DNA of 64,000 nucleotides from Betaproteobacteria bacterium (GTDB taxonomy: Bacteria > Pseudomonadota > Gammaproteobacteria > Burkholderiales > Rhodocyclaceae). Made by a program: the position numbers and the translations under genes. The first letter of the stretch is position 1, and each line of letters opens with the position of its first letter. Of this stretch, positions 5,545 to 34,209 are shown piece after piece. The stretch is taken from the NCBI GenBank assembly GCA_009777245.1, contig WRMF01000003.1:1-64000 (forward strand), in the 5' to 3' direction. The notes under the pieces were generated by a model. It did not search any database, had not been told where the DNA came from, and saw only the letters and a list, made by a program, of their open reading frames with translations.

Positions 5545-5581
5545 TTGAGTCACCTAGCCATGAATGGCTAGGATTGCGCTT
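5545..5581 (-). repeat. Short hairpin repeat (family R1), ends GTGACTCAA
   Basis: Reverse complement AAGCGCAATCCTAGCCATTCATGGCTAGGTGACTCAA; matches 5' part of copy at 9682; contains ptsI stop codon. Confidence 0.65.
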
Positions 5582-7340
5582 GACGCGAGTTCAATTTTGC
5601 CACCGCCTCTTCAACCTTGCCCGTTTCGCCCCGCTTGATGATGCGGCGGGCGAGGGGAGCTATCTCGCCGACATCCGCCTGAATTATGCGGCTTTTGATC
5701 TCCATGATCTGTGAAGAATGCATGGAAAAATCCTTTAGCCCCATACCCAAAAGCAGCCTGGTAAATTTCGGGTCGCCTGCCATTTCGCCGCAGACCGAAA
5801 CAGGGACGCCCGCTTTCTCGCCGCTGGTCAAAACATGCGCGATGAGTGTAAGCACAGCCGGGTGAAGGGAATCATATAAATCGGCAACTTCTTCATCGCT
5901 GCGATCAACGGCAAGGGTATACTGGATCAGGTCGTTGGTTCCGATGGAAAGGAAGGAAAGCCGTTTCAGGAACGTTTGGACGATCAATGCCGCGCCCGGC
6001 ACTTCAATCATGCCGCCAACCTCGATGTCATGATTGAAAGGGATGTTTTCTCCCGACAAACTGGCCTTGGCTTGTGCGAGTGCGCTTAAGGAAGCGTCTA
6101 TCTGGCGCGCGTGCGACAGCATCGGGAACAAAATTTTTACCTTGCCATAGTGCGAGGCGCGCAAAATGGCGCGCAACTGCGTATGAAACATTTTAGGCTC
6201 GACGAGCGACAAACGGATGGCGCGTCGCCCCAAGGCCGGATTGGTCGGGGTGCGCTGGAGATCCAGCATTTTATCCCCGCCCAAATCAAAGGTTCGGATA
6301 ACGGCAGGACGCCCGTCCAGAGCCTTGGCTACTGTCCGATAGGCTTCAAACTGCTCGTCTTCCGAAGGCAGATCGCCTCGCCCCAGAAAAAGAAATTCCG
6401 TGCGATAAAGGCCAATGCCTGAAGCGCCGGACTCCAGCACGGCGTCCATGTCGGAAGGCATCTCGATGTTGGCGAGCAGATTGATTCGGATACCGTCAAG
6501 CGTTTGGGAAAGGGTTGATTTCAGCCGTTTCAGCTTGCTGCGTTCCAGCTCCAGCAGTTCCTTCCTGATCCTGTACTCATCAAGCACCTGCTCATCCGGA
6601 TCAACAATCAAAACCCCGCGCTGGCCGTCCACAATCAGCCATTCGCCGTCCCGAATCATCGCCCGCGCGCTTACCAGTCCGACAATGGCCGGAATAGCCA
6701 TACTGCGCGCCAGAATGGCGGTATGTGAGGTTGCGCCGCCTACATCAGTGACAAAAGAGGCAAAATGATGCTTCTTCAAGTTGATCGCGTCGGTCGGCGA
6801 AAGATCGTGCGCGACGACAATACGGTTTGCCTCATCAGACAGCCCGCCTTTCGCTTTGGCAGATTTGCCCAGCAACTCCTGAACCACACGCTCGACGACT
6901 TGCATGACATCATATTTGCGCTCCCTTAGATACGGGTCGCCGACCTGCTCAAATTGCTCAACCAGTTGCTCCATGCGTTGCACAAGCGCCCATTCCGCAT
7001 TGCAAAGACGTTCCCGGATAATTTGCTTCGTAGCGTCCACCAGTTCCGGGTCGGCAAGAAAAAGCATGTGCAAATCAATGAAAGCTATCAATTCACCGGG
7101 TGCGACGGCGGAAGACTTGTTCTGCGCGCGCATATTCAGCAGTTCTTTCCGCACGGTATTCAAAGCGCGATCCAGACGTACGATTTCTCGCTCCGCCTGC
7201 CGCGCAGTCAATGTCAAGCGCGCCACATCAAGAGTGGCATGCGACATAAGCAGCGCGCGTCCGATGGCAATGCCGCCGGAGACGCCCAAACCGTGCATGG
7301 TAAAGCTCACGCCGCTACTCCTCGCCAAAACGGTTTTCAA
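5568..7340 (-). CDS. ptsI: Phosphoenolpyruvate-protein phosphotransferase (PTS enzyme I)
   Basis: GGATSHTAILARSMAIPAIVG, FLSIGTNDLIQYTLAVDR. Confidence 0.96.
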   Translation of the reverse strand: MKTVLARSSGVSFTMHGLGVSGGIAIGRALLMSHATLDVARLTLTARQAEREIVRLDRALNTVRKELLNMRAQNKSSAVAPGELIAFIDLHMLFLADPELVDATKQIIRERLCNAEWALVQRMEQLVEQFEQVGDPYLRERKYDVMQVVERVVQELLGKSAKAKGGLSDEANRIVVAHDLSPTDAINLKKHHFASFVTDVGGATSHTAILARSMAIPAIVGLVSARAMIRDGEWLIVDGQRGVLIVDPDEQVLDEYRIRKELLELERSKLKRLKSTLSQTLDGIRINLLANIEMPSDMDAVLESGASGIGLYRTEFLFLGRGDLPSEDEQFEAYRTVAKALDGRPAVIRTFDLGGDKMLDLQRTPTNPALGRRAIRLSLVEPKMFHTQLRAILRASHYGKVKILFPMLSHARQIDASLSALAQAKASLSGENIPFNHDIEVGGMIEVPGAALIVQTFLKRLSFLSIGTNDLIQYTLAVDRSDEEVADLYDSLHPAVLTLIAHVLTSGEKAGVPVSVCGEMAGDPKFTRLLLGMGLKDFSMHSSQIMEIKSRIIQADVGEIAPLARRIIKRGETGKVEEAVAKLNSRQAQS

Positions 7341-9640: not shown

Positions 9641-9681
9641 CCCTTCATCTCCATTGACTCAGGACAAGTTGAACACTTGTT

Positions 9682-9794
9682 AAGCGCAATCCCTGCCATT
9701 CATGGCGAGGTGAGCAAGACAGTTGTTTTGTGGAGCATTGAGGCTCTCTAACCTGTGTCGAGGAATCCCCGGCCTTCAGGGCGGGGTGACTCAA
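9682..9794 (+). repeat. R1 repeat copy 1, IS200/IS605 right-end-like hairpin, ends TCAA
   Basis: TTGTGGAGCATTGAGGCTCTCTAACCTGTGTCGAGGAATCCCCGGCCTTCAGGGCGGGGTGACTCAA; aligns to copies at 15008 and 33625. Confidence 0.8.
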
Positions 9795-14765: not shown

Positions 14766-15007
14766 TTCAAACTCTCTTTCAAAAAAACGGCGCAGCCCCG
14801 GTTTGATAGAGCCGCGTCAAGATAAACAGGCCGGAAACCGTATTCCGACCAAATAGCAAAACATTATACCATAGCATGTAGAAGAATCGGCGGCATTTGA
14901 TTAAAACAGCCTCGATCTTTCCTCCCTGTCGCTCGTGGCGAAGCCAAAGGGGCGGAGTTTGCAGGCAGCGCATGATTTTTAATTGCGGGAATGACCACGT
15001 GTCTCGA

Positions 15008-15116
15008 AGAAGCCTCGAAATGAATGGCGGGGTGAGCGAGACAGTTGTTTTGTGGAGCATTGAGGCTCCCATAATCTGTGGCGAGGAAGCCACAACCTTC
15101 AGGTTGGGGTGACTCA
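15008..15116 (+). repeat. R1 repeat copy 2
   Basis: GAGCGAGACAGTTGTTTTGTGGAGCATTGAGGCTC...CCACAACCTTCAGGTTGGGGTGACTCAC. Confidence 0.78.
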
Positions 15117-15151
15117 CTATACAGGCATGTAAAAAATATTTTCTTTCCTTG

Positions 15152-21362: not shown

Positions 21363-21390
21363 TTGAGCCACCCCGTTCTTTGGGACGGGG
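21363..21390 (-). repeat. Short hairpin repeat (R1-like), ends GTGGCTCAA
   Basis: Reverse complement CCCCGTCCCAAAGAACGGGGTGGCTCAA. Confidence 0.55.
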
Positions 21391-33570: not shown

Positions 33571-33624
33571 TTCTTGTGCATAATCAGCGCAAGGAGACCT
33601 CGAATAGTTCGCGTTCTAAATTGA

Positions 33625-33742
33625 ACATGCGTCGAGCGCAACCCTCGAAATGAATGGCGAGGCGAGCGAGATTGTTTTTGGAGCATTGAGGCTCTCTAAC
33701 CTGTGTCGAGGAATCCTCGGCCTTCAGGCCGGGGTGGCTCAA
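33625..33742 (+). repeat. R1 repeat copy 3, ends TCAA
   Basis: TTTTTGGAGCATTGAGGCTCTCTAACCTGTGTCGAGGAATCCTCGGCCTTCAGGCCGGGGTGGCTCAA. Confidence 0.8.
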
Positions 33743-33861
33743 CACAACCATAACTAGAGCGGCTTCGATTTAAGCGGATACATTCATTGTGGATTCCAGC
33801 TTCCCGCCTTCGCGGGGACAGGCATGCTGGAATGACATCTGGGCAAGCGGGAGAGGTGCGT

Positions 33862-33978
33862 GTAGGGGCGAACCTGCGTGTTCGCCCTTTGGGCAGACAC
33901 ATAGGTCTGCCCCTACGGCGGTGATGCGTCCGTTGTGCGGAAACGGGCGACCGGGGACGGTCGCCCCTACGGCGGCGA
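33862..33978 (+). repeat. GTAGGGGCGAACC / GTCTGCCCCTAC hairpin repeats, copy 1
   Basis: GTAGGGGCGAACCTGCGTGTTCGCCCTTTGGGCAGACACATAGGTCTGCCCCTACGGCG, followed by a GGGCGACC...GGTCGCCCCTAC unit. Confidence 0.85.
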
Positions 33979-34209
33979 TGGTTTTCCTGATCCCTGTATT
34001 CTGTTTGTGCATCGCATCATTTTCCGCCGCATTTTTGGGGCAATATGTTGTTTTTTATGACTCTATTATGAAAATTCCCGCAATGCCCCCCGAAATTGAT
34101 TAACCGTCCTTGCCATGCGCTATACAATCGCTCCGATGCTATCAAGCATTCTACCCGTTTGGCTTAGGCCTTGCGGTTCTGGAACAAACCCTTTCAGAAA
34201 GGTTCAAAC

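Follow-up and report, generated by a model that had tools for sequence, protein, structure and literature searches.

Three hairpin-bearing repeats lie dispersed over a 64,000-nucleotide stretch of a Rhodocyclaceae genome (contig WRMF01000003.1; this whole stretch is called the window below), and they raise the question of whether they are remnants of transposons, loci that give rise to guide-like RNAs, or mobile units in their own right. A preliminary description of the window had likened them to the right ends of IS200/IS605 elements and had seen no tnpA or tnpB gene near them, a point that was confirmed. The existence of the three repeats is well beyond chance, as they are recognized in the window with E values of 1e-34, 2.2e-32, and 6.8e-32 by a covariance model, R1, built from 46 copies.

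Architecture and distribution of the element

The copies in the window occupy positions 9669-9794, 14991-15117, and 33621-33742, and each is ~121-127 bp long. The extents of ~110 bp initially assigned to them corresponded to real copies but fell short of these starts, as they overlooked a left end that consists of TTGA(A/C)..GCAAT/GAAG followed by a hairpin, CCTCGCC..GGCGAGG, in the copy alignment. Rather than the stripped right ends that had been proposed, each copy is thus a complete element, in which an internal hairpin lies between a left and a right end. Including the target tetranucleotide, the unit measures 118-128 bp, typically ~125 bp, which is too short for transposase coding. From 5' to 3', TTGA(A/C) is followed by ~13 nt, a left guide, the left hairpin, ~22 nt, the internal hairpin GGAGCC..GGCTCC, ~16 nt, a right guide (GAAT or GAAG), the right hairpin, TGAC, and TCA(A/C). 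Homology stops sharply after TCAA or TCAC, and the ends of the element are not inverted repeats of each other; a subterminal hairpin is found near each of them in the copy and cross-genus alignments.

In the first copy (9669-9794, forward strand, including the flanking target tetranucleotide; 144 bits with R1; alignment A1), which belongs to what is called code A below, the left cleavage or target site (CL), TGAA, lies at 9670-9673 on the host side of the left end and pairs with the left guide (GL), CAAT, at 9687-9690, 5' of the left-end hairpin (9691-9710). The internal hairpin, GAGC-ATTGAG-GCTC, is at 9733-9746, a position that it holds in nearly all copies. The right guide (GR), GAAT, at 9763-9766, pairs with the right cleavage site (CR), TCAA, at 9791-9794, where homology ends in all copies, and the right-end hairpin, CCCCGGCC-TTCA-GGGCGGGG, stands between the two (9767-9786). 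According to the code table, the second copy (14991-15117, forward strand; 132.9 bits with R1) is of code B, with CL TGAC, GL GAAG, GR GAAG, and CR TCAC, and the third (33621-33742, forward strand; 134.9 bits with R1) is of code A, with CL TGAA, GL CAAC, GR GAAT, and CR TCAA, its GL being a mutated CAAT.

In the cross-genus alignment A3, the left hairpin is paired in 96% of cells and the right one in 94%, with double changes at three and five pairs, respectively. Across genera, the left- and right-end helices together show changes on both sides in 36 cells, compared with 9.5 ± 2.4 in shuffles. The early suggestion that the right-end stems differ in a compensatory manner was borne out by this larger alignment, and the covariation, on whose significance the original reading had been made to depend, survives in it. 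The internal hairpin is compensated as well, because stem variants of it were found across genera (GGAGCC/GGCTCC, GGCGCC/GGCGCC, GGGGCC/GGCCCC, GGCACC/GGTGCC, and AGAGCC/GGCTCT). An outer left stem, GTC..GAC, extended by GC/GC, encloses the left guide; between its parts, G-A/A-G oppositions are present in A copies, and T-A and C-G in several B copies. The internal hairpin may possibly have a parallel in IS608, where a second hairpin of the left end contributes in a minor way to transposase binding (PMC5934647). The left hairpin occurs with two loops, CGCCATTYATGGCG and CGAAATGAATGGCG, which look as if the loop had been inverted between the two arms of the stem; both are found among code A and code B copies (e.g., L012:987-1112 vs. 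L017:987-1112), and the window copies at 33621-33742 and 14991-15117 likewise exemplify these variants.

The window also harbors a 50-bp single-hairpin derivative on the reverse strand (5545-5594; 37 bits with the covariance model), in which the left end and its hairpin are kept and joined at GGTGA to the right tail TGACTCAA, apparently by deletion, to judge from its sequence. A hairpin described earlier at 5545-5581 was correctly related to the repeat, but it is part of this complete derivative and its extent was too short. Four more 50-bp single-hairpin forms are found in Emb289P4bin67 (WQZF01), where their sequences indicate that they apparently arose by deletion between shared AATCCC motifs. 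Among the PATEs of Haloquadratum, core deletion yields 52-bp terminal-only forms, which the 50-bp forms resemble and which reflect the same kind of deletion (PMC3119063). Another short hairpin that had been counted as a member, at 21363-21390, does end in GTGGCTCAA, but it has no left end and carries GATG instead of GAAT before the hairpin; it was left out of the family, as R1 gave no match to it even at E ≤ 5.

A blastn search with the first copy revealed at least 40 copies in the 2.15-Mb source genome, with E values down to 1.2e-23, and the covariance model raised this number to at least 57, with 55 in genome G018. Full-length elements were detected with the model in 35 of 399 genomes of the host family, belonging to 15 genera; the carriers often have at least eight copies, and single copies were found in three one-contig genomes. 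In GTDB contigs, 79 stretches match the exact left-end pattern, nearly all of them in Betaproteobacteria MAGs, with labels including Azoarcus and Zoogloeaceae. From their isolate names, we take the Rhodocyclales/Betaproteobacteria MAG relatives to be of termite-gut origin. One match to the left-end pattern in Hyphomicrobiales was discarded, as the remainder of the element is missing there. The element was not found in viral contigs, plasmids, or phages.

Guide and cleavage codes

In IS608, the left end combines CL TTAC with GL AAAG and the right end CR TCAA with GR GAAT, and bases 1 and 2 of the guide pair with bases 2 and 1 of the site (PMC5934647). As in the IS608 rule, each terminal hairpin of the present element has at its 5' foot a guide tetranucleotide that pairs with a cleavage tetranucleotide. 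Two codes are found. In code A, the left site TGAA goes with the guide CAAT, and the right guide GAAT with the site TCAA; in code B, the left site TGAC goes with CAAG or GAAG, and the right guide GAAG with TCAC. Among the 57 source-genome copies listed, the right end reads GAAT-TCAA in 31 and GAAG-TCAC in 14, and the other 12 have an altered site, a guide missed by the pattern, or a mismatch (GAAT-TCAC once, GAAA-TCAC once). The combination of CR TCAA with GR GAAT is identical to that of IS608, and the left guide-target pairing obeys the same position rule (PMC5934647). In contrast to IS608 and ISDra2, the element has TGAA or TGAC as CL rather than TTAC/TTGAT, possesses the second code TCAC/GAAG, and is devoid of tnpA and tnpB.

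At position 4, the left site and guide (columns 6 and 23 of the 46-copy alignment) form A-T (AU) in 31 copies and C-G in 13, with one unpaired and one gap, and the right guide and site (columns 102 and 131) form T-A (UA) in 33, G-C in 12, and T-G (UG) in one, these counts being of sequences and not of evolutionary events. For IS608, pairing at the fourth position (C-G or A-T) follows from its sequences and the established structures. The guide-site covariation score was attained in none of 500 shuffles, and sliding the partner abolished the signal. The position-4 pair is kept across several genera, in 27 of 27 left ends and 26 of 27 right ends (27 sequences). Because the structure of R1 did not include that pair, the pairing was not imposed by model selection. 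The covariation between codes A and B may stem from few evolutionary events.

One copy, C8:76350, is a hybrid that joins a B left end (TGAC/GAAG) to an A right end (GAAT/TCAA), both of which are self-consistent; therefore, each end keeps its own code. Most B copies of the source genome have GAAG rather than CAAG as GL, the first base of which is unpaired with position 2 of CL (nine unpaired), with the loss of one of the three predicted left guide-site pairs. The A and B copies of one genome share internal variants, namely ATTGAG loops in the source genome (G000) and CCGAAGG in G018; these sequences suggest exchange between the two sub-families within each genome.

Mobility and insertion sites

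Comparison of the flanks showed them to be unrelated among copies and revealed no duplicated target. When ten joined flanks were searched in relatives, a junction-crossing match was obtained at one locus, fabI; a blast search of joined flanks against the retrieved loci produced only repeat-driven matches. The corresponding source-genome copy (G000:C2:44943-45067; L028) is located in the 5' leader of fabI, between the TATAAT -10 box and the ribosome-binding site. The relatives have a short fabI leader without the element, diverged to the point that the exact pre-insertion bases are unreadable. This copy is probably transcribed and may affect the expression of fabI. As for the time of transposition, near-identical copies point to recent activity in both the source genome and Emb289P4bin67: identity amounts to 98.4-99.2% among three B copies (contigs C16, C18, and C24) and to at least 98% in 14 of the 325 copy pairs of Emb289P4bin67.

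In 12 of 54 copies, an upstream ORF of at least 150 codons ends with the TGA of CL as its stop codon, a situation found at 2.5-2.9% of the TGA(A/C) sites of the window. We read this as tolerance of insertions directly behind stop codons, and the excess may come from selection against damaging insertions alone, i.e., from the survival of harmless ones. The second window copy (14991-15117) is directly upstream of an ORF judged ArsR-like by eye. Leading- or lagging-strand orientation, assigned by GC skew, came to 18 of 37 copies, with a skew too weak to be informative.

The reading of the repeat as a PATE-like element turned out to be the best of those first put forward, and the order GAAT-hairpin-TCAA assigns its right end to the IS200/IS605 type; we consider it very likely that the element is a non-autonomous IS200/IS605-type transposable element (PATE). 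The top strand would be folded as single-stranded DNA by a Y1-type (HUH) transposase acting in trans, which would bind both hairpins, and the guide-cleavage pairing would direct the cuts to the 3' side of TGAA or TGAC at the left end and of TCAA or TCAC at the right end. The single-strand circle would then be joined 3' of another TGAA or TGAC, picked by the left guide. Since this target holds TGA, insertion behind a stop codon would leave the gene intact, and many surviving copies are indeed located there. By now, the transposase seems to have been lost, to have escaped detection or to be borrowed in most carriers.

The missing transposase and alternative readings

A search of the source genome for the Y1_Tnp domain (PF01797) gave no match at E ≤ 0.001, and the sole match at E ≤ 10 (11 bits, E 0.57) is to a RAYT-like ORF of 166 aa (L224), ~0.7 kb downstream of which lies a copy of the element. 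This ORF carries GTAGGGGCG repeats (L224 1342-1430 and 1598), which are apparently translated. At E ≤ 0.01, Y1_Tnp is absent from 13 of 22 other carriers, including G157 (99% complete), G223, G261, and G156 (100%); G157 and G223, at 99-100% completeness, have at least eight copies each and no detected Y1 transposase. For comparison, the domain is present in 35 of 61 relatives at E ≤ 0.001. Emb289P4bin67, with its recent copies, yielded nothing beyond a RAYT-like protein (186 aa) and a single match below the threshold.

No autonomous parent with the ends of the element was found by a left-end pattern scan of GTDB, among ORFs downstream of left ends devoid of a right end, or by a covariance-model scan of 52 loci, mostly Y1-transposase neighborhoods; similarly, searches of the source genome, relatives, plasmids, and phages revealed no autonomous IS200/IS605 relative that has these ends. 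The preliminary description had staked its reading on an IS605-type element sharing these ends, and on this point the outcome goes partly against it, as no Y1-transposase locus of the relatives carries both of them. The IS605 elements of G015, G010, G016, G013, and G005 were dismissed as parents, since they end in ...GGGGGAGGATGTCAA, where the spacer before the cleavage site differs. The partner may have been lost after each burst or have diverged beyond the reach of PF01797; alternatively, its role may be taken in trans by a RAYT or by a visiting transposase. It is conceivable, if doubtful, that the mobilizer is not a recognizable IS200/IS605 TnpA but a divergent HUH protein or a co-opted RAYT that nevertheless uses an IS608-style guide-site code, and that the family switched between the TGAA/TCAA and TGAC/TCAC codes, including one end at a time.

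That the repeat is of the REP/BIME type and owes its spread to a RAYT (TnpA_REP) instead of a classical IS200/IS605 TnpA is unlikely, even though its hairpins are high-copy and mostly intergenic, RAYT-like ORFs occur in G018, in Emb289P4bin67 and near a source-genome copy (L224), they are the only Y1 proteins found in several carriers, and divergent RAYTs are poorly recognized by PF01797, as the E value of 0.57 in the source genome illustrates. REP/BIME sequences with RAYTs are likewise dispersed intergenic hairpins with a tetranucleotide at the hairpin foot, but REPs are single palindromes of 20-40 bp tagged GTAG or CGTC (PMC3733652, PMC2817692). In contrast, the hairpin feet of the present element have no GTAG, GGAG, or CGTC tag and read GAAT, GAAG, or CAAT, and its two distinct ends show guide-site pairing of the IS608 kind. 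GTAG palindromes are found in these genomes as well, including beside a RAYT, and they form a separate family. In addition, the ends of the element do not flank the RAYT genes tested, the exception being the one copy ~0.7 kb away in G000. Palindromic repeats of the REP type, tagged GTAGGGGCG, are also present beside the third window copy (33860-33985).

A family of structured regulatory RNAs or terminators, kept for the benefit of the host and spread by ordinary duplication, is very unlikely. The compensated hairpins at three places would fit a structured RNA, as would the copy ahead of the fabI start codon and the many copies directly behind genes, but the copies have no common flanks, they start and end with fixed tetranucleotides, and their cleavage and guide pairs covary; the orthologous fabI leader of the relatives is without the element, and its presence is patchy (35 of 399 genomes). 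Finally, orphan ωRNA-like loci, whose transcripts would act in trans as a TnpB scaffold guided by the DNA following TCAA, are hardly credible despite the conserved internal structure and a right end that looks like the tnpB 3' ends of the genus (GAATCCCCCGCCTTTAGGCGGGGGAGGATGTCAA), since the likeness by inspection stops at the right hairpin, Rfam gives no match for the element, no TnpB domain was found in the source genome or in G018, and the presence of both transposon ends makes the sequence after TCAA plain host DNA at the insertion site.

As a PATE, the element shares with those of Haloquadratum walsbyi the absence of terminal inverted repeats, palindromes near both ends, non-coding shortness, high copy number, core-deleted derivatives of ~50 bp, the role of target for other small repeats, and mobility in genomes where intact tnpA genes are few or lacking (PMC3119063). 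In one Haloquadratum strain, the PATEs are likewise without an intact partner (PMC3119063), and we treat an autonomous partner as usual for such elements rather than as part of the published definition of PATEs. Unlike those PATEs, the present element keeps one ~125-bp design across 15 genera of a bacterial family and is distinguished by its additional internal hairpin, its two codes for cleavage and guide, and a hybrid copy. A PATE-like sequence of Halanaerobium hydrogeniformans also combines IS605 ends with the absence of tnpA, but it is a single copy of 271 nt that keeps a piece of tnpB (PMC7290912), whereas no coding remnant was detected here. As far as can be told, the family is new and its kind already known; what is unusual is the occurrence of two codes and an end-swapped hybrid, and persistence across a bacterial family, without an identifiable transposase. 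With two codes and a hybrid in one genome, the copies represent a natural experiment in programmable single-strand transposition, a counterpart of what was engineered in the laboratory by retargeting IS608. The question raised by Haloquadratum, of multiplication in genomes without an intact partner transposase, becomes sharper with this family, and carriers such as G157 and G223 make it testable.

Two other repeats were noticed in the course of this analysis. Immediately ahead of the right guide, many copies of Emb289P4bin67 contain a nested palindrome, GTAGGGGCGGGTTTCAAACCCGCCCCTAC (L154, L158, L189, L206, and other WQZF01 loci), a small repeat thus having been the target of another. The genus also has a second high-copy element, which looks unrelated; with a AAGAAATTAGCGACAG hairpin ... 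GGTCGAAACCCCGGCCTTCAGGCCGGGGTTTCAA, it is found in G013, G002, G014, G015, and G010 (L048, L049, L051, L054, L121), and it also has two hairpins, CCTTCAGG, around a structured middle.
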